From: Deroplatys truncata
Lineage: Eukaryota; Arthropoda; Insecta; Mantodea; Mantidae
Reading direction: 5' to 3'
DNA length: 64,000 nt
Assembly (NCBI GenBank): GCA_030765065.1
Contig: CM060990.1
Coordinates: 661,676,618-661,740,617 of the forward strand
Position 1 is the first letter of the stretch. Every line of letters starts with the position of its first letter. The position numbers were made by a program, and so were the translations under genes. Under the pieces are notes generated by a model. That model did not search any database, was not told where the DNA came from, and saw only the letters and a list, made by a program, of their open reading frames with translations. Of the stretch, positions 20,301 to 55,600 are shown one piece after another.

Positions 20301-21174
20301 CGAGGGCTGATCAACAAAGACAGACTGATTTTTTCCTGTAGCTTCCGTGATAGTTTCGTATCTGTAACATAAATATTTGAAAAGAGCGGGTTTTTATGTA
20401 TAATGTTGGTAGGCCGCAGCACTCTCGTATTGGTAGGTTGGTAGTAATGCTCTATTTTGTAGACCCTACGTGCATACCAGACAATGGAGTGATGCATTTT
20501 TTAAATCGATTATCACCGGTGATGAGTCATGGCTGCATCATTATGATCCTGAAGGAAAACAAGCCAGCACAGTGTGGAAATCGCCAGATTCTCCAACACC
20601 AAAAAAGGCAAAAGTTGTTCCATCTGCAGGGAAAGTGATGGTGATCACATTTTTTGACTGTAATGGAATGATTTATCAGCATGCAGTTCCCCCTCACACT
20701 GCTGTTACAGCAGCATACTATACACGTCAGTATTGGCTACACTGAGGAAGCACATTGCAAAGAAACGACCAGAGCTTTCTCGGACTGGGTGGCGACTTCT
20801 CATGACAATGCACGGCCTCACGTCGCAAATCAAGTCATGTAGTTTCTGGCTCGATTCAACATTACCTGTGTACCACATCCACCTATTAGCCCCGATCTTG
20901 CACCCTGTGACTTTCTTTTTATTCCCATCACTAAAGGCAAAGCTTAGGGGTATTCGATTTGAGAACTCTGAAGCAGTGCTCAAGAAAGGTGAGGCGATTC
21001 TCAAGGACCTGACAAAGAATGGTCTGCAGCACGTGTTCAAGGACTGGCAGAGACGCTATAAAAAGTGCATTGAAGTAGGAGGGGACTACTTTGAAAAAGA
21101 TCATGTAAACATTGAATTGGAGTAATAAACATCTGTGAAAAAAATCAGTCTCAGTCTTTGTTGATCAGCCCTCG
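20301..21174 (+). mobile_element. Mariner element with both ends, broken transposase
   Basis: The terminal repeats CGAGGGCTGATCAACAAAGA and their mirror at 21147-21174 are flanked by TA on both sides. The transposase keeps GDESWLHHYDPEGKQAS (first Asp) at about 20518, SHDNARPHVA with the second Asp at 20804, and SPDLAPCDF with the third Asp at 20909, giving the mariner DD34D spacing. The C-terminus CIEVGGDYFEKDHVNIELE ends at 21125. The N-terminal DNA-binding region is deleted. The frame changes near 20740, 20790 and 20915, and an in-frame TAG lies about 11 codons after the second Asp. It is non-autonomous but has intact ends. Confidence 0.88.
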
Positions 21175-27585: not shown

Positions 27586-28244
27586 ACTACCTGATCGTGA
27601 TTGTAAAGCAATAAAACCCGAGAGAAAGTATGGTCAGGAATTTTCAAGTGACCGGTTGATAATCGCTTCCAGATTGTGCGCATCACGCACCATTCCGCAT
27701 CCTGGAGCCGAGGGGTGCACATCGTCTTCAGGGACTACTGCTTCGGTCTTCTTGGGCAGCGCAGCACCATCGTGGGCGAGGCCAGCGCCTTCAACCGTCG
27801 CTTCGTGGGACACCTCAGCGGCAGCTAGCGGCATCTCCTGCAAGTTGCCTTTCCACCGGCAGCCATCACCATAGCGGCAAGCAGTGGGCACAGCACTTCT
27901 AGCTTGCCGCTCGGCCGCGAGAGTGCGAGCCGCCTTCACCTCTCCCACTGGCGGGCAGTGGACTTGCTTCCCCTTCTAGCCCGCCAGAAAAAAGCCCGGC
28001 CGGGAGAATCGTCGAGCGGAGCCGGGCAAGCAGTGGACTTAGCATCCCCTGATAGCTTGTCCTTGGTCTCTCGCTAAGGTCCAGCGGTAATTCTTGAGAA
28101 CAGGTTATCCCACATTTCTTACTACTCTCTGACTGTCATCTATTTTTCCAAGACTTGGACGCACTGACTGACGGACCACGAGACAGCGGGTTCGCAAGAC
28201 CACAGCCAAGGGTCAGGACCTCTGGTCCGGCACCCAGGGCCGAT

Positions 28245-29945
28245 ATGGCTCGTACAGGCGCCTCCCTCGCGGAGGTCCGGTCCTCTGCGGACAGCCGAAG
28301 GGCAACCGCGCCGACCCTTGACCCCAATGACGGGCAAGTACCAGCACCCAGCTCCTTCTCCTCTCCCATAACGGGAGCTTCAATCAAAGGTAGGTCCAAG
28401 GGACCTAAGAGGAAGGCTACGGCCCCTCAGAAGTTCACTGCCGGTGTAACACCAGCAATTCCCTCTCACCCCTCCTTCATCCCTCTGCCTGATTCGGAGG
28501 AGGAGGAGGAGTCCGACCTCGACGGCTTCACTGTCGTCGGGGGAAGGAAAAGGGCACCCCCGGGTTCCAAACCCAACTCGGGAGCTAGCTTGCAGCAACC
28601 ACCACCACAGGTTACCCAACAACCCCCATCCAAAAGGGCGGCCAAACTACCGCCGATCATAGCGGACTCCTTCAGAGACCATGTAGGACTTATGCGGCGG
28701 CTGGCGTCCAAGATCGCAGGCGGTTTTCAAGCCAGAAGAAAACCACATAAGGTCCACTTGCAGACCTTCACGCCCGAGGATTTCGAGGCGGCCAAGCAAG
28801 TCCTGAGGGACCTACAGATCCCTTTTTATTCATATTCACCGCAGCGCCCACACGTGGAGCGCCGAGTCATACGTGGGCTTGACTCTGAGTGCCACCCAGA
28901 CGACGTCAGGGCTGCGCCCTCAGAAGAGCACAACATCGTTGCATCGGCTGTGGCACAGCTGAGAAAGACAATCGTCACTGAGGAAGGCCCAGTGAAAGTC
29001 CCAATGCCTCTCTACCTCGTCGTTCTGGACAAGGTCCCTGGCGAGGTGACACAGCCCATTGACGCTGTTCGGGTGCTGTTCCACACGGTCGTAAAGGTTG
29101 AACGCTTTTACGGCCAAGGTGGACCAGTGCAATGCCACAGATGCATGGGCTTCCATCACTCCAGCCTGGCATGTGAGCGCAAGCTTGCATGCCTGCGCTG
29201 TGCTGGACCCCATCTTCTGCGGGATTGCGAAAAGGCACCCGAGGAGAAGACATGCGCTAACTGCCGCCAGGACCACGTCAGTGTCTACAAGGGCTGCGTG
29301 GCGAGGCAGAGGATAATCGAGAGCCGCCGAAAAGGAGCACCGGCACCGGCTACAGTCCGACCGGGAGTCTCCTTTGCGGCCGCTCACAAGAAGGCGGAGA
29401 CAACGCTACAAGGTGTGGGAGGAGCTTCGGCTCAGGAGGTGAGCACTGCAGCGACGCCAACAACACCGACGACGACTGCGACGTTACCCGAGGAAGTGCC
29501 AGAGCCGGGACAACAACAGCAACATCAGACAGCTCGACGAAAGAAAAACAAGAAGAAGAACAGCAAGAAAGGTCCTGCCTCTAACACCGAGCCGGGCCAA
29601 CCACAGGCACCGGCTGCACAACAGCCACAAGCCCCGCCCACAGTGGCGGCACAACAACCGACGGCCGCGGCAGTGACCACAACACCGGCTACTGCGACGA
29701 CCCACACACCGGCGCTCCCAGCATCATCGACGGCCTCATTAGCAGGCTTCGGTGACACAATTTCTCAGAGCGACATGGAAGAATTCCGGGCCCTATCCCT
29801 GTGGTTCGGTGATCTCATCAAAAGGGCCCTACCTGCACTCACGACCTGCAAGCTGCAGCTAGCCAACCCGCAGTTGAGCCCCATACAAAAGCACAAAGTC
29901 ATGCTCGAAACGCTGGAGCATTTGTTCCCTAATTCCGCTTCGTAA
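28245..29945 (+). CDS. LINE ORF1 protein, nucleic-acid binding
   Basis: ORF1 of the Jockey-like LINE packages and chaperones element RNA. The frame is open upstream to 28155, but the first ATG in it is 28245, giving 566 residues. Order of parts: a low-complexity N-terminus with an acidic EEEEESDLD patch; a region resembling the PRE_C2HC domain (about residues 195-290, RRVIRGLDSECHPDDVRA); three zinc knuckles at about 297-310 (CHRCMGFHHSSLAC), 316-328 (CLRCAGPHLLRDC) and 337-351 (CANCRQDHVSVYKGC); a basic run (RRKKNKKKNSKKG); a P/A/T-rich linker; and a short conserved-looking tail. It overlaps the ORF2 start by one base (TAATG), which suggests stop-restart translation of ORF2. The frame is intact although ORF2 is not. 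Confidence 0.8.
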   Translation: MARTGASLAEVRSSADSRRATAPTLDPNDGQVPAPSSFSSPITGASIKGRSKGPKRKATAPQKFTAGVTPAIPSHPSFIPLPDSEEEEESDLDGFTVVGGRKRAPPGSKPNSGASLQQPPPQVTQQPPSKRAAKLPPIIADSFRDHVGLMRRLASKIAGGFQARRKPHKVHLQTFTPEDFEAAKQVLRDLQIPFYSYSPQRPHVERRVIRGLDSECHPDDVRAAPSEEHNIVASAVAQLRKTIVTEEGPVKVPMPLYLVVLDKVPGEVTQPIDAVRVLFHTVVKVERFYGQGGPVQCHRCMGFHHSSLACERKLACLRCAGPHLLRDCEKAPEEKTCANCRQDHVSVYKGCVARQRIIESRRKGAPAPATVRPGVSFAAAHKKAETTLQGVGGASAQEVSTAATPTTPTTTATLPEEVPEPGQQQQHQTARRKKNKKKNSKKGPASNTEPGQPQAPAAQQPQAPPTVAAQQPTAAAVTTTPATATTHTPALPASSTASLAGFGDTISQSDMEEFRALSLWFGDLIKRALPALTTCKLQLANPQLSPIQKHKVMLETLEHLFPNSAS

Positions 29946-32617
29946 TGGCCTCCGGACGAGCTGCGTTCTGGAACGCAAATGGATTAAGGGGGCATTACCC
30001 CAGCGTACTTGAGTTTGTTAACTCCTACGGAATTGATATTCTAATGGTCTGTGAAACACACTTGATTGCTGGTACTAATTTTTCGCTGCCAAGTTACGTC
30101 ACCCATCGGCAAGATCGGGTCGGCCGACCGGGGGGCGGTACAACTATCCTCATTAAAAACCATATCACGCATACACCCTTCCCTCTCCCAGCACTACAGC
30201 ATGTGGAAGCCTGTGCCATTCGGCTTGCCATTGGCGGGCTAGACACACTGCTGATAGCGGTTTACGACCCTCCAGATCACCGCTTCTACGAAGCAGATTA
30301 CCGAACCCTACTTAACCTACACCCAGTGGTATGCATTGCAGGAGACCTCAGCGCGAAGGACGGGCTCTGGCACAGCCGCACGGTTAACCAGAAAGGCCAC
30401 GGACTCTACCGCCTCATCAGCGGAGACCCAAGCCTAATCGCGCACGGACCGAGAGGGCCTACGTTTCATCCGGCCCGCGGCAGGCCGGATATTCTCGACA
30501 TCATGATCACCAAAAACATCCCATTCCATCTAGAGCTCTCTGCGATAAACGAGCTGGATTCCGACCATGACCCTGTCCTGGTGGATTCCAACGTTTCAAT
30601 GCCAGCACTGGTCAGCCCAGACTGGGTAAACGAGGTCGACTGGGACGCAGCCGTCCAAGAATTGAACCGGTCTGTCGACCCGCGGCCACGTATCGACTCC
30701 ATCGATGCGCTGGAAGCGGCGGCGGCAGACTTCTCCCAACAGATCCTGACTGCGGTACGTGCACACACTCACCGCATCCCGCAACCCGAGAACCATTCCT
30801 AACGAACTCCGGCAGCTGCTAAAATCCAAGGCAACTGTACGGAAGCTATGGCAGCGTTTCCGCCATCCCAGGATAGGGGCAGTATACCAGCGGTTCAAAA
30901 CCCTGGCAAGGCGACTGCTCCCTGTGCACAGAAAGGAGGCCTGGGAAAGAACAATGGAGGCTGTAAACCTACAGGAAATGAAACCGTGGCGGATAATCAA
31001 ATCCTTGAGGAAGGATAAAACCCAGTACCAGCATCCTCTGCACGGCACTCGCGGGAGACTCGCATTCGAGCCCCGCGAAAAAGCCACGGTGTTTGCAGAC
31101 CATCTGGAACTTCAATTCGAACCGCGGGAGGACCCCCAGGACGAAGACTTCACTGAACTCGTGGAAGCGACTGTGGACCACCTCTATGAGGAACCACAAC
31201 CGCGCCACGAGGAGGTCCATCTTCCCATAGTCACCCCTAAACAGGTGGCTTCCGAAAACTCAACCCGAATAAATCCCCTGGACACGACGGCGTCACGGCG
31301 CCCATGCTCCAGCACCTTCCTAAGAAGGCCGTCATCCATTTGACGCGATTTTCAATGCATACCTTTACCTTCGTCACTTTCCAAGTAGTTGGAAAGAGGC
31401 GCGGGTGGTATGTATTTTAAAGCCCGGCAAGGATCCGGTCTTTCCATGCAGTTACCGCTCCATCAGCCTACTCCTAACCGTCTCAAAAGTCTTTGAGCGG
31501 TTGCTCCGAGCCCGCCTCAAACCTCTATTTGAGGAAAGGCAACTCCTACCGGACCATCAGTTTGGTTTTCGCCATGGGCACTCCACAACCCTGCAGTTAC
31601 TGCGATTGGCCGAGAAGGCCTCCCTGGGCTTCCAGGAGAACTTCAAGACCATAGCAGTGCTGCTGGACGTAGAGAAGGCTTTGCCACGACGTGGCACCAA
31701 GGCCTTTTGTACAAACCCAAGGAGTCAGACATCCCCCCGCCTATCTTGCCCTGATAAGCAGTTTCCTCCGGGATCGCACATTCAGGGTGAGAGTGGAGGG
31801 GAAGGATTCCTCAGTCCGTCCCATAGCCGCTGGAGTCCCGGAAGGCAGTGTACTGTCCCCGCTTCTCTTCGCGGCCTACATGTCGGACTTCCCCACGGAA
31901 CCCAGGACTGTTACGTGCCAATATGCCGACGATGTCCTCATAATGGCACAGAACAAGAATGCCCGATTCTGTTTCCCTCCACTACAGCAACAGCTCCGAG
32001 CCATTGGCAGGTGGAGCGAAAAGTGGAGGATGGCCATCAGCCCGGGGAAGAGCTCTGCGCTTCTCCTGGCGAAGGTCCGTAGGTGGCGGCCCGAGTGGCC
32101 TCTGAGGTTGCGGCGGAAGAGAATCCCCTGGGTTACCTCAGCCAAATACCTCGGAGTCACGCTCGACCGCGGCCTCACTTTCGCGCCACATGTCAGGGCA
32201 AAGGTCGGCCTCGGCCACTCCGCGCTCAGGCAGATGTACCCTGTATTCCGCTCCACAATGCCCATACGCCTCAAACTACGCCTATATCAGGAGATTATCC
32301 CGCCCCTGATTCTGTACGGCTGCGAGGTCTGGGGATCGGCGGCAGCGACCACCATCCGCAGACTGCAAACCGTTCAGAACAGGGCGCTTCGGATGATCTA
32401 TGATACCGGGCGTAGATTCCATTCACATATCCTACACACCCATTCCGGTCTCCCATACATCGTGGACGTGGTGCGGGAGAGAACCCGCACCATGTACACG
32501 AAACTCACCTACCACACCAACCAGCTGGTAAACTCTTTGGGCCGCTATGACCACAAGGCGCCACGGCGGAGAAAGAGCTACCGGTTGCCGAAAGACGGCT
32601 TGAGTCCCCGAGGCTGA
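29945..32617 (+). pseudogene. LINE ORF2, endonuclease-reverse transcriptase, frameshifted
   Basis: The ORF2 enzyme nicks target DNA and reverse-transcribes LINE RNA. The apurinic-type endonuclease occupies 29945-30750 (FWNANGLRGH, CETHL, GDLSAKDGLWHSR, LDSDHDPV); note GDLSA where GD-x-NA is usual, a lost active-site Asn. The reverse transcriptase follows: CILKPGKDPVFPCSYRSISL from about 31410, FGFRHGHSTTLQLL, AVLLDVEKA, then AGVPEGSVLSPLLF, CQYADDVLIMAQN (catalytic YADD near 31923) and AKYLGVTLDRGLTF, ending at TGA 32617. The frame changes around 30770, between 31230 and 31400, and around 31685, so at least three shifts separate otherwise well-kept motifs. There is no RNase H domain. The good preservation between shifts suggests loss was fairly recent. 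Confidence 0.8.
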
Positions 32618-32765: not shown

Positions 32766-33402
32766 CCCCCCCAGGGGCTCACCTTTTGTGAGTACGGGTT
32801 AGGCGCACCCGGGGTACCCGAGCCAATCATCGCCATCATCATCCTTCCACCCCCGTCCGGTCCAGGTGGGTTCGTTCTCGTGACCGGGGGAATCAAGGTA
32901 GGCTCTCGTGCGTTCTGTGCATTTCATATCATGTCGCCCCTCGCCATCGTTTCTTTCTTCGCTTTTACTTCTGCACATTTCGCACCACGTCCATTCATTT
33001 ACGCATCTCTTTTTCTTCCTCGCCGGCCTACCTTGCATCCGAAACGCCCACACAGTTTTAGTTTCTTTTATCTTTCTTTTATTCCTCCGTGGACACAGCC
33101 TGACGGATACCCGCGCACCAGGTGCGCAGCTGGGTGAGTGGGTAATGGCGTCATCCCCACCACCCGGGGTCGTCATGTAGGGTTTGTGTTCGTATCCGCT
33201 GTTCAACTGCAGTCCCGCGGGGGGGGCCATTGCATGAGCTGCTGACTTCTGACGGCGATTGGGTCCCTCTATCTATGTTCCGGGAGGTGTGACCCTGGGG
33301 TGAGTCTGGTATAGATAGGCCACTCACCCAAGCCGGGGTAACGCCCGAGAAGTCAGAGCCCGAGGTCGGAGACGGTTGCAATGGTGGAGGATTTATTTCG
33401 CT

Positions 33403-34692
33403 ATGGAGCACCCTTCCTGCATTAATACTAACAAGCGCCGAAAAGTTTATGTAACAGAAGTGACACCACCGACAACTGGTTGTTACTTGGTCATTTCACG
33501 AACCGAAGAAGGACAAAGTTTTGAGAAGGTGAACCCTTTCATCATTCAAAAGGGCATTGATGCTATTGCTGTTGCGGTTCAGTCCTGCACTCGTCCACGG
33601 AATGGTTCCTTATTAACCCAAACGAAATCCGATCAGCAAAGTAAGACCTTGTTGCGCGCTACGCTTCTCCACGACTATCCCATCCGAGTGGAGAAGCACC
33701 GCAGATTGAATTCCTGTCGAGGCGTCATTACCACCCATAGCCTCGATGGTATATCGGACGAGGACCTGGTAGAATATCTTGCAGACCAGAAAGTGACAGC
33801 GGTCCATCGAGTGCAGGCCAAACGCGACGGCGTATTGGTACCCACTCGTACCCTGTTTATTACATTTGATGGCGTCGATCTGCCCACGAGCATTTCCGCA
33901 GGGTACGAACGGATTTCTGTGAGGCCTTATATTCCTAGACCTCTGCGTTGTTTTAAATGCCAACGTTTTGGGCATACGCAAGTCTCCTGTAAGAGTGCCG
34001 TTAACATCTGTGCAACATGTAGCCAGCCCTCACACGAAGGTACCTGTTCAACAGCCCCCGTCTGCGTTAATTGTAAAGGGTCTCATTCTGCTTCGTTTGC
34101 CGACTGTCCGCGGTACTTGGACGAGAAGGCGATCCAGGAGATCCGGGTGAAGGAAAAACTCTCCTTCGCTGAAGCCCGGAGGCGTTACCATGCGCGCCAA
34201 CCTTCACTCCTGCGATCTGGCACATTCAGTTCTGTTGTTGCCTCGCCAGTACCACGAGTAGATGCCGAAACTCAGACTTGGACCATGACAGGATTAACCG
34301 CCACTACCATCCGGCCGTCCATTAAAGCTACTGTTACCAAGCCCTATAAGCCTGGTCCAAAATCAATGAAGTCGCAAGCCGCTGAAAAGAAGCCCAAGCA
34401 GAAACTTCGTAGGGAAGATTTTTTGAAAGACCCTCCGCGTGCGCGCGGGAACAATAGTTCACCTTCTCCTCCTCGGAGGTCGCTGTCCCAGGAAGGTCCT
34501 GGGACAAGCCGCGCTCAGCGGCACCCCTCACCCATCGCCACCCAGAACCGATTCACGGCGCTTGAATCGGTTTCTGGCTCTGAGCGCGTGGGCCCTCCCT
34601 CCGAGGAAGCTATGGAGTCTGACCAACTCCATACCAAAAGCCTGAGCCCCAAGGTTAAACAAAAGGTAATTTTAAGCCGCCCTTCTAAGTAG
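33403..34692 (+). CDS. I-like LINE ORF1, Gag-like zinc-knuckle protein
   Basis: The RNA-binding structural protein of the I-like LINE. The open frame starts upstream at 33376, but the first ATG is 33403, giving 429 residues. An RNA-recognition-like N-terminal half (around GVITTHSLDGISDEDLVEYL) precedes three CCHC knuckles at about residues 183-196 (CFKCQRFGHTQVSC), 203-215 (CATCSQPSHEGTC) and 221-235 (CVNCKGSHSASFADC). The C-terminal 190 residues are basic and rich in P, S and R, as expected of a disordered RNA-binding tail. The order matches ORF1 proteins of I, Jockey and R1 LINEs. No internal stop. It ends 22 bp before ORF2, so ORF2 probably relies on reinitiation. Confidence 0.85.
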   Translation: MEHPSCINTNKRRKVYVTEVTPPTTGCYLVISRTEEGQSFEKVNPFIIQKGIDAIAVAVQSCTRPRNGSLLTQTKSDQQSKTLLRATLLHDYPIRVEKHRRLNSCRGVITTHSLDGISDEDLVEYLADQKVTAVHRVQAKRDGVLVPTRTLFITFDGVDLPTSISAGYERISVRPYIPRPLRCFKCQRFGHTQVSCKSAVNICATCSQPSHEGTCSTAPVCVNCKGSHSASFADCPRYLDEKAIQEIRVKEKLSFAEARRRYHARQPSLLRSGTFSSVVASPVPRVDAETQTWTMTGLTATTIRPSIKATVTKPYKPGPKSMKSQAAEKKPKQKLRREDFLKDPPRARGNNSSPSPPRRSLSQEGPGTSRAQRHPSPIATQNRFTALESVSGSERVGPPSEEAMESDQLHTKSLSPKVKQKVILSRPSK

Positions 34693-34714
34693 ACAGTTTA
34701 TCCCTTTTTTCTTA

Positions 34715-37700
34715 ATGGCTATCCTGACCTGGAATGTACGTGGTGTACGATCGCATAGGGCGGAACTGCAACTTTTATTGCGTTCCCATTCGCCTATGGT
34801 CGTGTGTTTGCAGGAGACTAAGCTTCGCCCTCACGATCCTTTTGATCTCCGAGGATATACTCTGGTTCACTACGACCTTGAACCGGAGGAGGGTACTCCT
34901 GCTCATGGAGGTGTCATGTTGTTAGTGTGTAACGACGTTCATTTTAAACCCGTCACACTTACATCCGACTTGCAAGCTGTTGCCGTTCGCCTTCACTTAC
35001 CCGGCTTTTTGTTTTCTGTTTGCTCTGTGTATTCCCCTCCATCGTCTCCTCTCGCTCCCGCGGACATTCGAGCTCTCCTGTCCGCTCTCCCAACACCATT
35101 TCTTCTGTTGGGAGATTTTAATGCCCATCACCCACTGTGGGGTTCGCCAAGGGCTTGTGCGAGAGGAACTCTTCTTTCCGACATTTTTTATCAGTTCAAT
35201 CTTTCCATCCTCAATACAGGTGCACCTACTTTTATTTCAGATTCTTCTGGTACATTCTCTCTCCTGGACCTTGCCATTTGCTCACTCCAGCTTGCACGTC
35301 GTCTTCGGTGGAACGTCGTCGCTGACACCTACTCCAGCGACCATTACCCCTGCATCGTTTCTCTTCTGTCGCACCACGTACAGCATTCCAGAGTACCTAC
35401 CTGGATATTCGCAAAAGCCGACTGGAGCTTGTATTCCAGCTTCGTGCATTTTGACGACCAGCCCTTCTCCGACATTAACCAACTAGTGCAGCACCTTAAG
35501 TCTATTATTTTCTCTGCCGCCGAACGCGCAATACCCCGTTCATCCTCCCAACCTCGGTGGCCACCTGTTCCGTGGTGGAACGAGGATTGTCGGGACGCCG
35601 TTCGTGCCCGTAGGACTGCACTTAGGGTGTTTCGGCGGCACCCTACACTTGATAATTTGGTGACTTTTAAACAATCGCGCGCCAGGGCTCGTCGCATTAT
35701 TCAGGATAGCAAGAAGGCATCTTGGGCTCGTTTTGTCGAGTCTTTTAATCGTTTTACGCCTTCATCCGTTGTTTGGGATAAACTTCGTCGCTTCTCAGGT
35801 AAAGTGTCACATTGTACTGTTTCTGGCCTTCAGGTTTCTAATCCCACCATAGTGGATCCGGCTGCCATCGCTAACACTCTGGGTGCTGCCTTTGAGGCGG
35901 TTTCCAGTTCAGACCATTATTCCGCCGGCTTTCGCTCTATTAAAGACCGGCTGGATTCCGCATCATATACTTTTCGGTCTGCTAATGATGAATGCTATAA
36001 CGAACTATTCACAATGAGGGAGCTGGAGCACGCTCTTCATTGCTCTCGGCACTCCGCTCCTGGGCCGGACGGCATTCATGTCCTGATGTTAAAGAACCTT
36101 TCAGCCGACAGTAAACTATTTCTTTTACAGGTCTATAACAGTATTTGGCAAGACGGCATTTTTCCTTCCGTTTGGCGCGAAGCCACTATTGTCCCTATAC
36201 TTAAGCCTGGGAAGGATCGCCAACTACCTTCCAGCTACCGCCCTATCTCCCTCACCAGTTGCATTTGCAAGGTGATGGAGCGCATGATAAACGGGCGGTT
36301 GACATGGTGGCTTGAGTCTCAGAAACTTCTAGCGAACGCTCAGTGCGGGTTTCGTCGCTATCGCTCTACCGTCGACCATCTGGTGTCCTTGTCGACGCAT
36401 ATTATGAATGGATTTCTGAGAAAGTGTCAAACCGTGGCTGTATTTTTTGACCTGGAGAAAACTTATGACACTTGTTGGAGGGGCGGCATTTTACGTACAC
36501 TTCACGATTGGAATATCCGCGGTCGTCTTCCCATATTTCTTCGGGAGTTTATGACGGACCGCGTCTTTCGTGTACGTGTGGGCTCGGTTTTATCTCGTCG
36601 TTTTATTCAAGAGAACGGAGTACCGCAGGGCTCTGTACTCAGTGTCACACTTTTTGCGATTGCTATCAACCCCATTGTTGATTGTATTCCACCTGGCATT
36701 TCATCGTCCCTTTTTGTTGACGATTTCGCTATTTATTGCAGTTCACGGCCGACCTGTCTACTCGAACGCCGTCTCCAGAGCTGTATCGACCGTCTCTACG
36801 CCTGGAGTAACGCCAACGGCTTTAATTTCTCCGCCGAGAAATCCGTCTGCATCAACTTCTGGCGCCGGAAGTATTTCCCTCCGCCCTCTCTCCATCTTGG
36901 GCCAGGGATACTTCCGTTTGCAGACGAGGCGAAATTTTTGGGGTTGATTTTTGATAGGAAGTTGTGTTGGACCTCGCACGTTTCCTTTTTAAAAGCAAAG
37001 TGTGACCGTTCTCTTAATATTTTACGTGTTTTAAGTGGCACATCCTGGGGAGCTGATCGGACCGTCCTTCGCCTTTATCGCTCTTTGGTCCGATCCAAGC
37101 TTGATTACGGGTGTATTGTTTATTCGTCGGCACGTCCATCTGTGTTACGTCGATTGAATGCCATTCACCATCGTGGCATAAGAGTCGCTACAGGGGCCTT
37201 TCCAACTAGCCCTGTACCAAGTCTGTACGCAGAAGCTGCAGAGCCTCCGCTGTCCTTCCGGCGTAAGATGATTTTGTGCAGCTATGCTTGTCGGCTCTCA
37301 AGCTTGCCTAACCACCCGTCCTTCGATGTATTTTACGAGGATTCGCTTGATCGCCAATATTTCGTTAGCTCCTCTGCATTGCTCCCTCCAGGGGTTCGAT
37401 TTCGACTGCTACTTCGGCATTTGGACGTTACGCCAGCGCCGGCCCTTACCCGAGGGGAAACGCGTTTTCCTCCATGGTCGCGCGCTGAGGCCCACATCCA
37501 CCTTGGGCTAACGTCGATGCCAAAAAATTCGACCCCTGCTTCTGTTCTTAGATCCGCCTTTTTAGAACTACAGGCGCAGTTCGGGGACTGTCATTTTATA
37601 TATACTGATGGGTCTAAGACTGATGTTGGAGTAGGATGTGCCTTTGTTTTTGGTGTACAGAGTTTTGCTTTTCGTTTACCTCGACAATGTTCAATTTTTA

Positions 37701-38401
37701 CCGCCGAACTTTTTAGCATTTATCAGTCTGTTTTATACATTCAGCGGCACGACTTACGGCACTGTTTTATTTGTACGGACTCTCTGTGTGCCCTTCAGAC
37801 TATTCATGCGCTGTACCATTACCACCCACTCGTACAGCGCATACATGACCTGCTCCACTCGCTTGGTGTCTCTGGCATCAGCGTGTCCTTCATGTGGATT
37901 CCAGGTCATGTGGGCATCTCAGGTAATGAGTCTGCCGACGCCGCTGCGAAATCGGCGATTTTATTACCCACATTTTTTACTTCTGTTGTTCCCTCGTCAG
38001 ATTCGTGTGTTATTTTACGTCGCCGCATCCTCTCGCGCTGGCGCGATGAGGGGACGGCCCTCCGGGGGAACAAGTTGCGGGAGGTTAAGCCTTTCCCGTT
38101 GATCTGGGGTACCTCTTCTCGTTCTTGTCGTCGGGAAGAGGTAATTTTAGCTCGTTTACGGATTGGACATTGTGTTTTTAGTCATAGGTATTTGCTCAGT
38201 GGTGACCCCGCACCACTCTGTGGGCAGTGTGACGTGCCCTTAACGGTGCGTCACATTTTAACAGAGTGTCAGGTTTTAGCTGCATTGCGTGCTCGTGTGG
38301 GTCTGCCTGTTGGCCTAGCCAACGTTTTGGCAGACGACACGCGTGCTGTAGAATGTGTTTTACGTTTTATTCATGACAGTGATTTTAATCTGCGCATTTA
38401 A
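34715..38401 (+). CDS. I-like LINE ORF2: endonuclease, reverse transcriptase, RNase H
   Basis: 1,228 residues, uninterrupted. The endonuclease (1-225) shows TWN at 5-7, QETK with Glu34, GDFNAHHPLWG at 133-143 and SDHYP with Asp209/His210. The reverse transcriptase (about 440-780) shows PGPDGIH, ILKPGKDRQLPSSYRPISLT, AQCGFRRYRSTVDHL, FFDLEKTYDTCW, GVPQGSVLS and FVDD with Asp669-Asp670, then KFLGLIFDRKL. RNase H carries Asp965 (YTDGSK), Glu998 (TAEL), Asp1022 (CTDSL), His1065 (PGHVG) and Asp1075 (ESADAAA), so all five usual residues are present. A CCHC-like finger (CGQCDVPLTVRHILTEC, from 1169) closes the protein. It would carry out target-primed reverse transcription in the nucleus. All catalytic motifs look intact, but activity is inference. 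Confidence 0.92.
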   Translation: MAILTWNVRGVRSHRAELQLLLRSHSPMVVCLQETKLRPHDPFDLRGYTLVHYDLEPEEGTPAHGGVMLLVCNDVHFKPVTLTSDLQAVAVRLHLPGFLFSVCSVYSPPSSPLAPADIRALLSALPTPFLLLGDFNAHHPLWGSPRACARGTLLSDIFYQFNLSILNTGAPTFISDSSGTFSLLDLAICSLQLARRLRWNVVADTYSSDHYPCIVSLLSHHVQHSRVPTWIFAKADWSLYSSFVHFDDQPFSDINQLVQHLKSIIFSAAERAIPRSSSQPRWPPVPWWNEDCRDAVRARRTALRVFRRHPTLDNLVTFKQSRARARRIIQDSKKASWARFVESFNRFTPSSVVWDKLRRFSGKVSHCTVSGLQVSNPTIVDPAAIANTLGAAFEAVSSSDHYSAGFRSIKDRLDSASYTFRSANDECYNELFTMRELEHALHCSRHSAPGPDGIHVLMLKNLSADSKLFLLQVYNSIWQDGIFPSVWREATIVPILKPGKDRQLPSSYRPISLTSCICKVMERMINGRLTWWLESQKLLANAQCGFRRYRSTVDHLVSLSTHIMNGFLRKCQTVAVFFDLEKTYDTCWRGGILRTLHDWNIRGRLPIFLREFMTDRVFRVRVGSVLSRRFIQENGVPQGSVLSVTLFAIAINPIVDCIPPGISSSLFVDDFAIYCSSRPTCLLERRLQSCIDRLYAWSNANGFNFSAEKSVCINFWRRKYFPPPSLHLGPGILPFADEAKFLGLIFDRKLCWTSHVSFLKAKCDRSLNILRVLSGTSWGADRTVLRLYRSLVRSKLDYGCIVYSSARPSVLRRLNAIHHRGIRVATGAFPTSPVPSLYAEAAEPPLSFRRKMILCSYACRLSSLPNHPSFDVFYEDSLDRQYFVSSSALLPPGVRFRLLLRHLDVTPAPALTRGETRFPPWSRAEAHIHLGLTSMPKNSTPASVLRSAFLELQAQFGDCHFIYTDGSKTDVGVGCAFVFGVQSFAFRLPRQCSIFTAELFSIYQSVLYIQRHDLRHCFICTDSLCALQTIHALYHYHPLVQRIHDLLHSLGVSGISVSFMWIPGHVGISGNESADAAAKSAILLPTFFTSVVPSSDSCVILRRRILSRWRDEGTALRGNKLREVKPFPLIWGTSSRSCRREEVILARLRIGHCVFSHRYLLSGDPAPLCGQCDVPLTVRHILTECQVLAALRARVGLPVGLANVLADDTRAVECVLRFIHDSDFNLRI

Positions 38402-39397: not shown

Positions 39398-40848
39398 CAA
39401 AGAGCGCCAAAGAAAATCTCACTGCAACTCGCGTCTACGTCACATTTATCGTTGTAGGTGGCCTTGCGAAGCCATGGACATTGCATTAGTTGCTTTAGGC
39501 CACGGTGCAAGGATGCGCCAGTCTTTCTGCTAAATAGTTGCACCAATAACCACAACAGAGGTTACAAAATGGCACAGAAACGAAATATATGTATACGCTC
39601 TTGATCGTATTGGCTGAAAGAGAAAGAGGTAGAGTGAGTGCATTCAGTTTGTCATACAGACCTCTTATTGTGATAGGTAGCCCATACCTTATCGGCTAGT
39701 ACAGGACACGCCTTTGAAAGGGTTAAAAGCTAAGGGGAAAACTTGATGAGCGCCCAGGTTAGCGAAATGTATAATGTACAGAATGAGAAAATTTTCAAAT
39801 TAAAGCTTGAATGGTATTCATTAAATACATAGCAATACTTTATAACAAAAAATAAACAGAACTATTTCCAAAGTATCATTGCTTGTTGCTGCATAGAAGC
39901 AAACATAACTAAATAATAAACAAATAAAGCAGTATGTCTTCCCTCTAATTCAAACTACAATTGGTTAATATACCTTTACTAACATACTGCTGATCATAGG
40001 AATACAACGTCATCCTCCGTGGTGTAGTGGTTAACATGCTAGCCTCTAGCTCCCGAGGTGGAGGGCGATTGATTTTTTTCCGGCGTAAAAATCCCTAGCA
40101 TGGCTTCCTTCGGAAGGGAAGTAAAGCCGGTGGTCCCGTGTCGTAGATTTACGGCACGTAAAAGAACCTCAAGCCTGTAGAGAGGCCTCTGAGTAAAATT
40201 ACCCGTCTTTCACGCCCAATATAGAATGGGACGCTAAGGACTACAGCAGTTAAAGAGCATCCATAAATAAAACTGAATAGAAATTTCAATAGAAATACAA
40301 CAGCATTATAGACAAACATATAATCTAATTTATTGCCATAATATGTATGTCATATTCGGTAAACCATATACATATACACATTTATCTCTAGTTTCTAAAC
40401 ATGATCAATCAATTATAACAAAAGAGCCATTTGCACTTAGTAAACGAATATCTTCATCTGAGGATGTTTTGCGGGGAGTGCCAACTTTCTACGAGTAATT
40501 AGACTTTCTTCCCCACTTTCCTGGAATATTTTTATCCAGTAATTTACTATAAAAACACTTTTATGCACTGCCGTTGCAATTGCTGTAACAGTGCGTCCAG
40601 CCTCCCACATACCCACGATATGTCCACGAATAATTTCGCTAGTATACGGCATGACTGTTTCTGAAACAATAAACATGTTTTGGTTTCAATAACACCAGAA
40701 AAAGCAAAGGCATCAACCTCCCCTCTTTCCCCCCTTATTGCTGTGTTATCAAGCCACCCCACTTTGCGATAGATAAGGTGAAGTACACGCCTCAAAAGAC
40801 CCCAAAAACGATACAAAATCCGCCGAAGATTTTCTTCGGTGCTGTTTG
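39398..40848 (-). mobile_element. TA-type DNA transposon copy L, SINE-interrupted
   Basis: Ends CAAAGAGCGCCAAAGAAAAT and, mirrored, CAAACAGCACCGAAGAAAAT, each next to TA. The minus strand encodes the helix-turn-helix N-terminus of a Tc1-like transposase (40437-40650: SEIIRGHIVGMWEAGRTVTA, then VHKSVFIVNYWIKIFQESGE). The catalytic part is missing. A SINE (40009-40293) interrupts it. It is opposed to a second copy at 43412-44346. Confidence 0.75.
40009..40293 (+). mobile_element. SINE family A, copy 3
   Basis: A full-length plus-strand copy, A box TGGTGTAGTGG, with a deletion over the B box. It is flanked by the 8-bp duplication AATACAAC (40001-40008 and 40294-40301), so it inserted into the transposon after that arrived. 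Confidence 0.88.
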
Positions 40849-43411: not shown

Positions 43412-44346
43412 CACAGAGCGCCAAAGAAACCTTCGGCGGATTTTGTATCGTTTTATCGGGTCTTTTGAGGCGTGTCCTTCACCTTACCTTTCGCAGTGCG
43501 TGGTGGCTTGATAACACAGTAATAAGGGGGAAAAGAGGGGAGGTTGATGCCTTTGCTTTTTCTGATGTTATTGAAACTAAAACATGTTTGTCTCAGAACC
43601 AGTCATGCCGTATACTAGCGAAATTACGCGTGAACGCATAGTGGGTATGAGAGAGGCTGGTCGCTCTGTTACAGCACTTGCAACGGCAGTGCATAAGTGT
43701 TTTATAGTACATTAATGGATAAAAATATTCCAGGAAAGTGGGGAAGACGGTCTACATACTCGTCAGAAAGTGGGCACTCCCCGTAAAACATCCGCAGAAT
43801 ATGTCAGTTTGAGTAAATGGAAAATATGCTTATTTATTTATTATTTAGTTGTTTGCTTCTACGCAACAACAAACATTGATATCACTGTGAGAATACAGTT
43901 ATGTTTATTTTTTGTTATAAAGTATTGCTATGTATTTAATGAATACCATTCAAGCTTTAATTTGAAAACCTTCTCACACTGCACATTCTACATTTTGCTA
44001 ATCTGGGCAGTCATTGAGTTTTCCCCCTAGCTTTTAACCCTTTCAAAGGCGTGTCCTGCACTAGCCGATAAGGTATGGGCTACCAATCACGATAAGAGGT
44101 CTACACGACAAACTGAATGCACTCATTCTACCTCTTTCTGTTTTAGTCAATACCATCGAGAGCGTAAACGTATGCTTCGTTTTTACACCATTTTGTAACC
44201 TTTGTTGTTATTTGTGTAATTATTTAGGAGTGGCGCACCCTTGCACCGTGGCCTAAAGCAACCAATTAAATGGCTATGGCTTCGCAAAGCCACGTACAAC
44301 AATAAATAAGGCGAGATACAGTAAGATTTTCCTTTAGCGCTCTTTG
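43412..44346 (+). mobile_element. TA-type DNA transposon copy R
   Basis: Same family as 39398-40848, in opposite orientation. The ends are CACAGAGCGCCAAAGAAA and, mirrored, CAAAGAGCGCTAAAGGAAAA, both next to TA. A frame from about 43605 keeps RERIVGMREAGRSVTALAT and IFQESGED, then GTPRKTSAEYVSLSK. This is again only the helix-turn-helix part of a Tc1-like transposase, with a stop after CFIVH. 935 bp, non-autonomous. Confidence 0.75.
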
Positions 44347-50009: not shown

Positions 50010-50510
50010 CAACTATTCTATACACGACGACTGAAAAATTCAATGTCTCGCCAGAATTTGAACCACGGATCTCCCGGTCTCCGTGCGGTTGCTCTAACCA
50101 CTGAGCTACCATAGCAATATGCCGGCACGACAAATTCTCCAACTTATTCACAGGTTCATATCCTGGCGTGGGCATTGAATTTTTCAGTCGTCTGATTCTA
50201 ACTTTCCAACCTTGTCTAACAGACGGCTTGTATGGAAGAACAATTAATTCCATTATTTGATCTAATAATGGTCGAAACTATGAAGCTTGGGACTTGGTAC
50301 TTGCAGCATTGTAAGTCGCCATTGGGGTATGTCATCCCAATACAATTCGAGATCTCCTAGTGATTTATCGGGAAAAATGCGAATCACTTGGCGAATTTAA
50401 CGTCGTGCCGGCATGTTACCACGGTAGCTTAGTGGTTAGAGCAACCGGACGGAGAAGGTGAGACCTTTGCAACTTTGTCCAACACACAGCTTGTGTGGAA
50501 GAAAAACACT
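50010..50510. mobile_element. tRNA-like foldback repeat family F, locus 2
   Basis: A minus-oriented unit (50030-50145, with TAGCTCAGTGG and GGTTCAAATTC) is followed by a plus-oriented tail (from CATTGAATTTTTCAGTC, about 50177-50255). A second plus unit begins GTACTTGCAGCATTGTAAGT at 50298 and runs through its A box TAGCTTAGTGG to the GTGTGGAAGAA end, lacking the B box. Same family as loci 1 and 3. Confidence 0.65.
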
Positions 50511-50799: not shown

Positions 50800-50803
50800 G
50801 TAT

Positions 50804-51870
50804 TGAGACGGTAATTTGTATCACAAATTACTTTAATGTAAATAATTATTTTTATATGAATATGTATTCTTATGTAACATTGATTTCAGAGGTTTAATAA
50901 TTGTAATTATTAATGGTAAATAATAATTTTCGGCTCTACTGAAACTGTTAACAATAACACAATACTTTAGCAAGGGAGTGAGTTGTTTATCGTTACCGGG
51001 AACCAGGAAGTTACGTCATGTTTCGCGCCTTTTCAGTAAAAAAAGCTTCCAGAACATTCTATAAAAGTAATATGTATTAGTGGTTTTCATTGGATAGTAA
51101 AATAGACGCTAATGTTGGCGCGTTTTATTAGCCAATGGTAATTCATTTATAATCTTTAGGTGTATCTTGGGGCAAGCCTATAAATAGCCATGCTCAAAGC
51201 CGAGCGTTCTCCAGTTCGGCAAGATTCTCGACACAGTACACATCGTCCTCCAGTTCGGCAAGATTCACGAGGCATTACACATCATCTCCCGCAGGCCGCT
51301 CAGTTCATCAAAGTACAATACGTGACTACATGTTGCCAATCGGTCCTTCAGTTCAAGTTACGCGCAGTGAAAATCATTAAAGATCTAAAATATTACAAAG
51401 TCACTTATATACAAAAATTGAAGTACGTGAGTTAAAAGTGAGAAGTTATTACAAACAGTTTCAGTATGGCGATTATCTAGACAAATCTGTGAAAGTGTTA
51501 GTGCACGTGTTCGACAATAAAACAGTATAAAAAACATTTCTTCACTAGTAATTTTTGGATAAAAGATTCCTTTTCCGCTTCACACCCTGCAAGAATTAAA
51601 TGCCTACCTAAATAGCTGGCCGGAAGACAATATACATAACCTTAAAACTAATTCATATAGATTGCTACGCCAGATGGAGTTAGCAGGCGACCGACGAATG
51701 ACGTCACACAATATGGCTGCACGCGTGAGGTAAACAACATTACGTGAGAAACATTATCCACCACGTGGGGACACAAATACACAAATACACACTAATTCTA
51801 CTTCAAATTGGCTCCCATACGTGGGGCAGTTAAAGTGAAGTAAATATACAATTTGCAATGTTATACTTCA
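50804..51870 (+). repeat. 5' LTR of family A element
   Basis: 1,067 bp, TGAGACGG...ATACTTCA. TATAAATA at 51179-51186 is a likely promoter box. Just downstream are two tandem CCAGTTCGGCAAGATTC copies (from 51210 and 51250) and a small ORF (51190-51435, 81 codons) that is repeated in the other LTR. Near the 3' end, at 51809-51827, lies a decayed copy of the primer site (TGGCTCCCATACGTGGGGC), 65 bp before the real one. Confidence 0.93.
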
Positions 51871-51873
51871 AAT

Positions 51874-51891
51874 TGGCGCCCAACGTGGGGC
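51874..51891 (+). other. Primer-binding site, tRNA-Lys type
   Basis: TGGCGCCCAACGTGGGGC begins 3 nt after the LTR end. It equals the primer site used by retroviruses primed with tRNA-Lys1,2 (as in Mason-Pfizer monkey virus, from family knowledge). Confidence 0.88.
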
Positions 51892-52167
51892 GACAACTAG
51901 GAAAGGAAGGCTAGACGACTAGGAAAGGAACAAGAATAACCAGAGAGGCGAAAGCAGCAGTGAAACGACCTATAGACGTAGATTCCGGGACAGAAGGGTA
52001 ATTCAGCTACAAGAAAACATCGAAACGACGTAGATTCATCACGATACAACGCAGAAGCGACATACAAACCTAGGAGAATGGGGCAGAACGCTGGACATCA
52101 AAGCTACATCAACAGGCAGCAACATAAAGGTCAGGTGATTGTAATTTTTTTTTAGAAAACAAAAACA

Positions 52168-53112
52168 ATGGCTGCTAGGAATACTGAAGAAATAATGATG
52201 AAGGGAGATAGTGTAACAGTTAGCTGTAAGTCAATACAGGTTACAAAAAAAAGCTCAAACAATGTAGTAGTTGAGGGAGGAAATGTTAGTAAACAAAGTC
52301 AGAATAGAATAACAGGAAATATTAATATTGATGCTGGTATGATGATGGAAATAATGAAAATGCTGAAAGATATTCGTAAGAGTCGAGAAGAATTAAGGGA
52401 AGATATGCAAAAGAGTTATGAGAAATTAGGGGAAGCTATAGACAGGAATCATAGGAAATTAATGGAAGATATTGGTAGGAAAAATGAGATATTAGAGCAA
52501 AAAGTAGATCAAAGCAGTGAAGAAAGTGAAAAGAAAGTTACGAAGCTAGATAGTTGTATGCCAAAAATGAGAGATGAAAATGAGGAAGTAATAGTAAGTG
52601 AGATAGGAGAAATTTCAAAGAAAATGCTAGACATGAACATGGAAATAGATAACAAAGAAAGTGAGGTTAATACTAAAAGTGAGGTTAATGTAGAATGCGC
52701 AGAGTTAGGAAGTCAAATGAGTAGTATTTCAAGTGAGTTAAGAGAGATAAAAGAGGTTAGGAATGTAGATGTAAATGAGGCGCAAGTTAAGTTCAGAGGG
52801 GAGATATCAGAAATGCAAAAAGAATCAGAAATGCAAAGAAATAAATTGTACCAATATGTTCAAAATGAAAACTCCAGTCCAGTACAGTTTAGTACAGATT
52901 TGTCAGAGTATTCTCAAATTAAAATGATAGCAGATGAATTGAAAATGACAGTTGTTAAAAGATGTGTAATTCAAGAAACTGTAGATTGTTTGCAAATGTT
53001 ATCAGGTAACGAAATGCCATATGAATACAAGAGGTTATTCATGAACAATTTGAAGGTTAGGTTATGGCTACGAGTAATGTTTAGCCACACACAATTTGAT
53101 CCAGGAGGGTAA
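52168..53112 (+). CDS. Coiled-coil Gag-like protein of family A element
   Basis: 314 residues from ATG 52168, 277 nt after the primer site. Residues 1-55 are polar and Ser/Lys-rich. Residues 58-235 are very rich in E, K, M, S and R with heptad-like spacing (MLKDIRKSREELREDMQKSY, EKLGEAIDRNHRKLMEDIGR), pointing to a long coiled coil. The last 60 residues (MIADELKMTVVKRCVIQETV, then YEYKRLFMNNLKVRLWLRVM) look globular. There is no zinc knuckle and no protease motif. Its position in an LTR element suggests a Gag or Gag-derived protein for particle assembly; that is inference from context. It may be a shortened relative of a longer Gag. Confidence 0.6.
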   Translation: MAARNTEEIMMKGDSVTVSCKSIQVTKKSSNNVVVEGGNVSKQSQNRITGNINIDAGMMMEIMKMLKDIRKSREELREDMQKSYEKLGEAIDRNHRKLMEDIGRKNEILEQKVDQSSEESEKKVTKLDSCMPKMRDENEEVIVSEIGEISKKMLDMNMEIDNKESEVNTKSEVNVECAELGSQMSSISSELREIKEVRNVDVNEAQVKFRGEISEMQKESEMQRNKLYQYVQNENSSPVQFSTDLSEYSQIKMIADELKMTVVKRCVIQETVDCLQMLSGNEMPYEYKRLFMNNLKVRLWLRVMFSHTQFDPGG

Positions 53113-53916
53113 ATAGCAATGTGATGTAAAGTAAATGCTGGATAGGTAAAGACGACTTGCAGAGAAATGTATTGGAACGTAAGAGGGTTAACTAAATATA
53201 TATGTCATTTGAAAAGAGAAATAAGTTATAAAGAAAAAAAAGAAATGTTTTAAAAAAAAATAATAAATAAATAAATAAATGAAATTTTTAGTAACTGTAA
53301 CAGTATTTGAAAAGAAGAAAGTAATGATTGAAACTTAATATGATATTAAATTAAAAGTACGTAAACACAATTCCAAGATTTAAAAATTGAGAATGCAAAG
53401 ATTAAAATTTAATATGATATTAAATTAAAAGTACGGAAATACAATTCAAAGAGTATTGTTAAAGTGAAATTCAAAATAACAAAAAATTGGTAAAAATAAA
53501 TAAAACAAATACTTGTATAGTAAACAGAAAAGGTGAAACATTATCTAGATTTAAGAGATGTAAATATTTGTGTTGAGGGTGAATATTTTGGTACATATGT
53601 ATAATAATTACAAAAATCTTAAATGTATAAATTTTGTCAACAGCTTAAAGTAAACAATTTGGTAGTAGTAAATAAATAGTTTAGGGTATAGTATTTGCTA
53701 TAAAAAAAATTTTGTGATATCAGATTAATATCTAAATTAATTAAATCAGAGCCAGTAAGTAGTGGCAAGATAAAACATATGTCGTGTGTTAAACGCGTGT
53801 GAAGTGTTAAGTGAAAGTGAATAGCGTGTGTTACAAGATTTAGGAGACTAAAAACAAAATTATAAAATTTCCAAACAGGTTATAAATATTTATAATTATG
53901 TTTCTAGTGGGGCATA
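53113..53916 (+). other. AT-rich 3' internal region with polypurine tract
   Basis: No ORF. Contains (AAAT)n at about 53261-53282 and a nearly repeated block around AACTTAATATGATATTAAAT and its second copy near 53405. It ends in the polypurine stretch next to the 3' LTR. Confidence 0.7.
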
Positions 53917-54983
53917 TGAGACGGTAATTTGTATCACAAATTACTTTAATGTAAATAATTATTTTTATATGAATATGTATTCTTATGTAACATTGATTTC
54001 AGAGGTTTAATAATTGTAATTATTAATGGTAAATAATAATTTTCGGCTCTACTGAAACTGTTAACAATAACACAATACTTTAGCAAGGGAGTGAGTTGTT
54101 TATCGTTACCGGGAACCAGGAAGTTACGTCATGTTTCGCGCCTTTTCAGTAAAAAAAGCTTCCAGAACATTCTATAAAAGTAATATGTATTAGTGGTTTT
54201 CATTGGATAGTAAAATAGACGCTAATGTTGGCGCGTTTTATTAGCCAATGGTAATTCATTTATAATCTTTAGGTGTATCTTGGGGCAAGCCTATAAATAG
54301 CCATGCTCAAAGCCGAGCGTTCTCCAGTTCGGCAAGATTCTCGACACAGTACACATCGTCCTCCAGTTCGGCAAGATTCACGAGGCATTACACATCATCT
54401 CCCGCAGGCCGCTCAGTTCATCAAAGTACAATACGTGACTACATGTTGCCAATCGGTCCTTCAGTTCAAGTTACGCGCAGTGAAAATCATTAAAGATCTA
54501 AAATATTACAAAGTCACTTATATACAAAAATTGAAGTACGTGAGTTAAAAGTGAGAAGTTATTACAAACAGTTTCAGTATGGCGATTATCTAGACAAATC
54601 TGTGAAAGTGTTAGTGCACGTGTTCGACAATAAAACAGTATAGAAAACATTTCTTCACTAGTAATTTTTGGATAAAAGATTCCTTTTCCGCTTCACACCC
54701 TGCAAGAATTAAATGCCTACCTAAATAGCTGGCCGGAAGACAATATACATAACCTTAAAACTAATTCATATAGATTGCTACGCCAGATGGAGTTAGCAGG
54801 CGACCGACGAATGACGTCACACAATATGGCTGCACGCGTGAGGTAAACAACATTACGTGAGAAACATTATCCACCACGTGGGGACACAAATACACAAATA
54901 CACACTAATTCTACTTCAAATTGGCTCCCATACGTGGGGCAGTTAAAGTGAAGTAAATATACAATTTGCAATGTTATACTTCA
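53917..54983 (+). repeat. 3' LTR of family A element
   Basis: 1,067 bp, almost identical to the 5' LTR. TATA box at 54292-54299, the same small ORF at 54303-54548, and the internal PBS-like copy at 54922-54940. It is followed directly by GTAT. Confidence 0.93.
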
Positions 54984-54987
54984 GTAT

Positions 54988-55304: not shown

Positions 55305-55600
55305 AATTCATTGTTCTTTCACACATGCCATGTGTAGGCTAAGGTTAGTAAGGTAGAATCGGGGGAAAAATGCAATGTTATATCCGGGATTTGGACCACG
55401 GATCTTCGGCTTTCCGTGCCGTTACTCTAACCTACCTACCTACCTACCTACCTACCTACCTACCTACCTACCTACCTACCTACCTACCTACCTGTCTTAC
55501 CGGCACGTTGCCATATTAGCTCGGTTACAGCAACGGCAAGAAAAGCACAGGATCCGTGGTTCAAATCCCGGCTACATCATTGAATCTGATTCTTCCTTAG
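55305..55600. mobile_element. tRNA-like foldback repeat family F, locus 3, with (ACCT)n
   Basis: The left arm on the minus strand starts ATTGTTCTTTCACACATGCC and passes a decayed tRNA-like part (B box side at about 55383-55402). It is then interrupted by an (ACCT)n microsatellite at 55430-55493. The right arm on the plus strand reads GCACGTTGCCATATTAGCTC, then GGTTCAAATCCCGGCTA and CATTGAATCTGATTC. It has the same inverted arrangement as loci 1 and 2. Confidence 0.6.

Follow-up and report, generated by a model that had tools for sequence, protein, structure and literature searches.

How can a long terminal repeat (LTR) retrotransposon that carries no pol gene continue to spread, and what keeps its single remaining gene readable? 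The question is raised by the element at 50804-54983 in a window of 64,000 nucleotides from the mantis Deroplatys truncata (assembly GCA_030765065.1, contig CM060990.1, positions 661,676,618 to 661,740,617 of the forward strand), which an earlier reading of the letters alone had taken for a Gag-only element recently mobilised in trans. It is moderately probable that this is a non-autonomous LTR retrotransposon of the Ty3/Gypsy type, mobilised in trans by a full-length sister family, and that selection acting in cis preserves the open frame of its shortened Gag. Underlying this explanation are cis-sequences common to short and full-length elements, helpers with open gag and pol, mosaics between the two types, and a recent insertion.

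The element has paired LTRs bounded by TG...CA, a target-site duplication and a primer-binding site (PBS) adjoining the 5' LTR, as found in LTR retrotransposons. Its parts, assigned from the sequence and including an open reading frame (ORF), are as follows.

50804-54983, plus strand: LTR element, 4,180 bp
50800..50803 and 54984..54987: target-site duplication GTAT, left and right copies
50804..51870, plus strand: 5' LTR, TG...CA, 1,067 bp, ~98% identical to the LTRs of full-length elements
51179..51186, plus strand: presumed promoter TATA box TATAAATA in the LTR
51516..51521, plus strand: presumed polyadenylation signal AATAAA in the LTR
51874..51891, plus strand: live PBS TGGCGCCCAACGTGGGGC, 18 nt, three bases 3' of the 5' LTR
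52168..53112, plus strand: ORF of 314 aa, a shortened Gag, with a heptad-patterned coiled-coil part (aa ~56-230) and a capsid-like remnant (aa ~233-312)
53113..53400, plus strand: stretch following the ORF, partly homologous to the region right after pol in full-length copies
53417..53916, plus strand: last part of the internal region, at 94-96% identity with the full-length copies L009-L011, against ~80% in the ORF region
53906..53916, plus strand: presumed plus-strand primer site AGTGGGGCATA, a short and atypical polypurine tract
53917..54983, plus strand: 3' LTR, 1,067 bp, differing once from the 5' LTR

The two LTRs had been read as 1,067 bp long with about one difference, and a single mismatch was measured between them (A at 51530, G at 54643), in agreement with the recent insertion that had been proposed; the GTAT duplication already noted is likewise present on both sides. 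The PBS TGGCGCCCAACGTGGGGC, which we take to be the exact complement of tRNA-Lys(CUU), gave two matches in the window when up to three mismatches were allowed (one of them its own site, on the opposite strand), against 0.03 expected. As to the polypurine stretch noted originally, no long polypurine tract adjoins the 3' LTR, which is a weak point of the observation; the presumed plus-strand primer site there is the short AGTGGGGCATA, invariant in 22/22 copies examined. The internal region of 2,046 bp contains 44% A on the coding strand and a single long ORF, whose 314 residues compare with a longest ORF of 193 aa in 500 dinucleotide shuffles of that region. In line with the earlier reading, no long pol frame was seen by eye in any of the six frames of the internal region, which are interrupted by stops outside the ORF.

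The host genome (4.29 Gb, 818 contigs) was searched with the LTR, which yielded 44 matches from 40 scored of 3,362 first-look candidates, and the pol-bearing relatives that this search had been proposed to find, carrying protease, reverse transcriptase (RT) and integrase, were indeed present. Copies (numbered with the prefix L) were fetched as 20 stretches chosen from the LTR matches together with the first 20 places of a probe for the short-element junction; a pair of matches 11.9 kb apart on contig C12 became L026 and L027, a lone match on C13 became L028 and stood outside the analysis, and a lone match at C11:49479710 was left out. The LTRs of the full-length helpers L009, L010 and L011 are ~98% identical to those in the window, with one mismatch between each one's own LTRs. 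Their gag frames run without a stop for 696, 688 and 691 codons, respectively, and pol comprises 1,174 codons in L010 and L011 and is split in L009; L026 has a gag of 677 codons and a pol cut by the end of the fetched stretch. Pieces of the L010 pol match RVT_1 (E 4e-26) in Pfam, along with models for RNase H, for integrase and for protease (of the three protease matches, one exceeds its cut-off), and the order protease-RT-RNase H-integrase is that required for Ty3/Gypsy. The helper Gag consists of a long N-terminal heptad part (its pattern, tested over aa 71-300, exceeds all 300 shuffles), a linker, a capsid-like segment and an Arg-rich tail without a CCHC box.

Two blocks of the window ORF align with the helper Gag, aa 1-227 (51-54% identity) and aa 233-312 (61%), and they lie ~370 bp apart in helper gag. 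By this alignment the ORF is a shortened helper Gag, in which the predicted coiled-coil part is fused to the first ~80 residues of the putative capsid-like domain and followed by a stop, the rest of that domain and the Arg-rich tail being absent. The heptad pattern at aa 56-230 of the ORF exceeds all 500 shuffles. The description as a Gag-only element is therefore right as to the origin of the ORF but has to be narrowed to a partial Gag, the coiled-coil part and the start of the capsid-like domain. The long coiled coil and the missing zinc knuckle, which had been called unusual, are both there, but both are inherited, since the helper's own Gag shows them. Loss of a zinc knuckle through the deletion was rejected because the helper Gag also lacks the CCHC box, and capture of a host gene was rejected because the ORF aligns nearly end to end with a Gag. 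A Pfam scan of the ORF returned no gag; what matched were coiled-coil and other models, all short of their curated cut-offs. Searches of PHROGs and the PDB gave only weak coiled-coil-type or unnamed matches, the capsid remnant alone (91 residues) had no Pfam match, and scans of viral contigs, whether with the ORF, with the PBS junction or with the capsid-like segment, yielded no relative.

The short type appears to have arisen stepwise, by a loss of ~4.2 kb that starts within the capsid-like part of gag and ends immediately 3' of pol, followed by losses of 291 and 60 bp from the Gag linker, both of which are in frame. The point of the large deletion would lie within 53113..53400, because some of that stretch has its homologue in the sequence immediately 3' of pol in full-length copies. 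Intermediates are found among the 20 junction-probe copies: L038 has lost pol and retains the full linker, L030, L032, L042 and L046 have ~20 linker residues left, and the window type has none. One deletion junction is common to all 15 short copies aligned across it, and an origin as random deletion derivatives was rejected on this ground. Deletions with random breakpoints and no conservation of the ORF, named beforehand as what would speak against a mobilised Gag-only element, were thus not encountered in the sample, in which the junction is shared by the 15 aligned copies and the frame is mostly kept.

Exchange between the short and the full-length type is recorded in mosaic copies. Positions 1090-1765 of L015 are 99.8% and 97.9% identical to L010, and identity falls to ~80% beyond them; likewise, 1091-1810 of L021 is 99.2% identical to L011, with ~82% beyond. 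The window copy itself is 94-96% identical to L009-L011 in its last 500 internal bases and ~80% in the ORF region. Mosaics with full-length copies point to co-packaging, and hence to mobilisation in trans; they would be explained by template switching between co-packaged RNAs, while gene conversion is a possible source that would need to have acted repeatedly. Short and long elements alike have target duplications of 4 bp where these could be resolved (4 bp being the only length tried), the 3' priming site is common to both, and the LTRs of short copies are identical or nearly so. What stands of the predicted mobilisation in trans is that pol-bearing relatives with the same LTR recombine with the short elements, from which the mobilisation itself would follow. 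Among the short copies, the internal stretches of lowest variation (1.8-2.9%) are 53072-53191, which spans the end of the ORF, and 53792-53911, beside the 3' LTR, and these may hold cis-acting signals.

One LTR is common to short elements, mostly 2.7-3.5 kb from LTR to LTR, and long ones of 7.5-7.8 kb. Most LTR pairs among the scored matches were spaced at ~3.1-3.4 kb or at 7.5-7.7 kb; single pairs lay 4.1 kb and 11.9 kb apart. The first 100 places of a probe for U3 (the 5' portion of the LTR) on contig C1 gave 46 adjacent same-strand spacings, of which 31 measured 2.6-4.2 kb, 8 measured 7.4-7.9 kb and 7 fell outside both ranges; 15 places were unpaired. Genome-wide, 29-mer probes with at most two mismatches matched 8,159 places for the short-element junction, 1,849 for pol RT and 9,552 for U3, and reversed controls matched none. 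The ratio of junction to pol of ~4.4 to 1 is rough because the probes evolve at different rates, and the U3 probe detects only window-like LTRs; 9/20 sampled junction copies have at least one LTR that matches the window LTR only partly. With the junction at 8,159 places, the element is no lone oddity. At C1:9532561-9538041 (G000), three LTR places follow one another 2,726 bp apart twice, as if two elements shared the middle LTR.

Selection on the ORF is most evident in its frame. It is open in 26/35 copies examined, namely in 13/15 short LTR pairs from the LTR search (L016, with 288 codons and a start ~20 codons later, being scored as open) and in 13/20 junction-probe copies (frame of at least 290 codons). 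A young set of 24 copies was formed from all 15 short LTR pairs and the 9/20 junction copies with LTR divergence <0.5%; 20 of them are open and four are closed by frameshift or insertion, the latter being free of stops in the 191-203 codons compared. Across a 204-codon stretch these 24 copies contain zero stops, against 18.9 expected, or 8.2 if the expectation is scaled to alleles present in at least two copies. The expected count was derived from the changes seen in the 20 open young copies and is not conditioned on openness; reliance is placed on it because an early estimate from 13 open copies and a figure of 22 expected stops were both so conditioned. One apparent stop in L034, a member of the young set, lies at codon 81, in a part of the coil that aligned badly and does not belong to the 204 codons counted. 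Excluded from the set were L031 (2.35%) and L037 (1.22%) by LTR divergence, and L030, L032, L036, L038, L039, L040, L042, L043 and L046, which are undated since at least one LTR is only partly window-like; stops are present in 5/11 of the excluded copies (L030, L032, L038, L040 and L046), all of them closed.

Length changes point in the same direction: insertions and deletions in multiples of three number 17/24 in the ORF (a count in which some coiled-coil gaps are alignment artefacts), 7/18 in the leader and 12/71 in the 3' region, L019 being left out. The frame thus appears to be kept and the residues hardly so: selection is marked on the former and close to undetectable on the latter. Because new insertions derive only from transposing copies, openness would have to benefit the RNA molecule in which it resides, a cis effect. 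Between short and full-length copies the ratio of nonsynonymous to synonymous rates (dN/dS) is 0.55, which indicates constraint somewhere on the deeper path.

The following course of events is proposed. The short element would be transcribed from its own LTR, and its RNA packaged in particles of the full-length sister family, with which it shares the LTR and the 3' priming site; reverse transcription and integration would then be carried out by the enzymes of that family. Selection during transposition would keep the shortened Gag open in cis: the coiled-coil segment, translated next to the RNA that encodes it, would co-assemble with the helper Gag and tether that RNA into particles. Such a segment would need a helical, charged character rather than a fixed sequence.

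Several observations weigh against this explanation. The ORF is closed in 9/35 copies: by frameshift in L014, L029 and L034, by an insertion in L019, and with stops, in some cases accompanied by frameshifts, in L030, L032, L038, L040 and L046. Codon changes among short copies show little or no trace of purifying selection. In 13 short copies dN/dS is 0.83-1.20, depending on the transition bias assumed, and the 26 open copies have a mean dN of 0.090 and dS of 0.093, a ratio of 0.96 for the part unique to the short lineage. Under the mutational spectrum of the 3' region, 63 synonymous and 223 nonsynonymous changes were observed against 62.7 and 222.8 expected (omega 1.00). The residue changes are not significantly conservative (P 0.07), and the helper branch alone may account for the ratio of 0.55. 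The capsid remnant is altered at residues that the helper retains, and it is doubtful for this reason that it would fold as a capsid. Even in the helper the capsid assignment is weak: the segment matches Ty3_capsid at E 0.011, below the Pfam curated cut-off, the whole helper Gag has no gag match in Pfam, and the AlphaFold model of the segment is poor (predicted local distance difference test score, pLDDT, 48). Mobilisation in trans, too, is deduced from sequence. With the helper's capsid-like segment, neither phmmer nor a two-sequence profile retrieved a capsid from the PDB. Foldseek with the model returned 0 matches at E <=0.001; of the 27 rows it listed, 8 were capsid entries of the Arc and Ty1 type, the two best (E 0.54 and 0.64) among them, and these were not counted as evidence.

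An omega near 1 is explained no less readily by a requirement for translation itself than by one for the protein. The same trans-mobilised element might thus carry an ORF that matters only as translated, the passage of ribosomes protecting the RNA against decay or routing it to sites of assembly and the protein being idle; this is rather unlikely, though it deserves to be taken seriously. Stops are depleted at an omega of ~1.0, codon changes proceed at the rate of the 3' region, and the end of the ORF with the bases that follow (53072-53191) varies by 2.3-2.7%, near the 1.8-2.9% of 53792-53911 beside the presumed polypurine tract, as a cis signal might. The heptad pattern, however, is present, insertions and deletions in the ORF mostly preserve the frame, the residue changes lean weakly towards the conservative, and omega by part, under the 3'-region spectrum, is 0.79 in the capsid remnant, against 1.06 in the coil and 1.82 in the 19-residue tail (12 changes). 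Between protein and translation, the balance leans towards a sequence-tolerant coiled coil that co-assembles with the helper Gag.

It is improbable that the shortened Gag is instead a dominant interference factor, which would poison helper assembly and limit copy number in the manner of Ty1 p22, a truncated Gag described as inhibiting Ty1 (PMC4599808). The mantis protein, being a truncated Gag, may retain the ability to pair by its coiled coil, but it is the N-terminal part, inhibition of its own helper would give no cis advantage although openness has been selected during spread, and the junction probe matches 8,159 places against 1,849 for pol. Least probable, and already disfavoured, is a passive internal-deletion derivative with an ORF open by chance: the omega of ~1, the broken ORF in 9/35 copies and the mosquito precedent of a neutrally evolving non-autonomous LTR family (PMC3212995) are in its favour, but zero stops in 24 young copies against 18.9 expected without conditioning on openness, the successive in-frame deletions of 291 and 60 bp and the single junction of the aligned copies speak against it.

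The nearest named class to the proposed trans-mobilised element is the TR-GAG (terminal repeat with GAG domain) of plants, which likewise has two LTRs and a single Gag-type ORF without pol (PMC6022998, PMC8704663). A full-length relative in the same genome that could supply pol is described for the Arabidopsis case and is present here. Unlike the mantis ORF, which is partial, homologous to the helper Gag and without a Pfam gag match, TR-GAG elements are defined in those sources by a recognisable GAG domain; that of Arabidopsis is described as encoding a 562-aa GAG, called full-length, and its transposition was observed (PMC6022998, PMC8704663). Among the matches listed, the TR-GAG literature is, by title, all on plants. 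The mantis family differs in retaining only part of Gag, a part unlikely to form a capsid, in its copy number and in how selection acts on its ORF.

The helper agrees with Ty3/Gypsy in domain order and in the weak match of its capsid-like segment to Ty3_capsid, and differs in a Gag with a long N-terminal heptad part and an Arg-rich C-terminus without CCHC. Insect LTR families that are non-autonomous or without conserved coding regions are described from mosquitoes, among them one with a long ORF lacking conserved regions and Bel-21_AG, neutral by dN/dS; unlike here, the available part of that account describes no Gag-derived ORF with selection on its frame (PMC3212995). Ty1 p22 is similarly a truncated Gag made by a retrotransposon, but it is reported as the C-terminal half and inhibitory (PMC4599808), whereas the mantis ORF is the N-terminal part and its carrier the more abundant partner. 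Large retrotransposon derivatives (LARD) and terminal-repeat retrotransposons in miniature (TRIM) are also non-autonomous LTR elements, classed by length when coding domains are absent (TRIM <2,000 bp, LARD >=2,000 bp; PMC6022998). The mantis element differs from them in maintaining a Gag-derived ORF, open in 26/35 copies; an automatic classifier might nevertheless call it LARD, at 4,180 bp and with no Pfam domain. The family has copies in the thousands, with helpers and stepwise intermediates beside them in one genome. It is a natural experiment, open to counting, on gene retention in a parasite's parasite, and it makes cis-preference in Gag packaging testable.

The ends of the LTRs carry a further record, of primer sites that are no longer in use.

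51809..51827, repeated at 54922-54940, plus strand: fossil PBS-like motif TGGCTCCCATACGTGGGGC in the LTR end, matching the live PBS and its flank

Alignment of 51800-51827 with 51865-51891 gave one mismatch and one indel in 28 columns, and none of 2,000 shuffles was as good. In L020 the TGGCTCCCATACGTGGGGC motif occupies the position of the live PBS, and the LTR is correspondingly shorter. At least one PBS-like motif lies inside the 3' LTR in 16/28 copies with placed LTR starts and none in 12/28, and 19/28 have two or more at the 5' junction; some copies (L009, L013, L017, L020, L023) have an unused motif downstream of the live site. The motifs can form ladders, as in L041, where 9.4 repeats of a 71-bp unit (at least nine copies) run to the limit of the fetched sequence, and in L047, with six motifs on its 5' side. 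The 3' LTR of L015 is ~60 bp longer than its 5' LTR. On the simplest account, any of several primer sites would be usable, and strand transfer between co-packaged RNAs of different register would lengthen or shorten the array.

A linked pair of ideas is put forward tentatively, as somewhat short of an even chance: that the gene is selected only for readability while its residues drift neutrally, the selected trait being translation or a sequence-blind coiled coil, and that LTRs grow by a primer-site ratchet. Duplicates of the PBS at the junction of U5 (the 3' portion of the LTR) and leader would be used in turn, and a switch to a more distal site would put the old one into both LTRs and leave a ladder. 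Such ladders suggest a simple route for the evolution of LTR length and boundaries, and they matter for the dating and annotation of LTR elements because a single insertion can have a 5' LTR and a 3' LTR of unequal length. Titles and abstract openings of the literature searched contain no description of PBS ladders, which is not proof of their absence from print; PMC4580426 has a single PBS-like site, and in PMC3212995 the members of a Copia family fall into two PBS types, the tRNA type varying from copy to copy rather than forming a ladder within one LTR. Unlike lengths or end sequences of the 5' and 3' LTRs within single insertions were seen in L015, L013, L018 and L021. The window LTR also carries a 39-bp tandem duplication at 51205-51286, near the presumed transcription start, which is found in both LTRs.

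The remainder of the window contains other mobile elements. An apparently intact non-LTR retrotransposon occupies 33319-38401, with an ORF1 of 457 codons lacking a Pfam match and an ORF2 of 1,241 codons with endonuclease, RT and RNase H; a second one, with a broken ORF2, lies just upstream at 28098-32617. Mariner-like transposase fragments were found at 590-1087 (DDE_3, E 6.9e-6, just under the cut-off) and, judged by eye, at 20664-21125. Long inverted arms (312 bp at 89% and 80 bp at 88%) at 39444-39863 and 43897-44307, ~4 kb apart, possibly belong to a DNA transposon or an inverted duplicate. Repeats resembling tRNA-derived short interspersed nuclear elements are located at 16994-17389, 50050-50463 and 55383-55465, one of which was identified as tRNA-Ser by ARAGORN.

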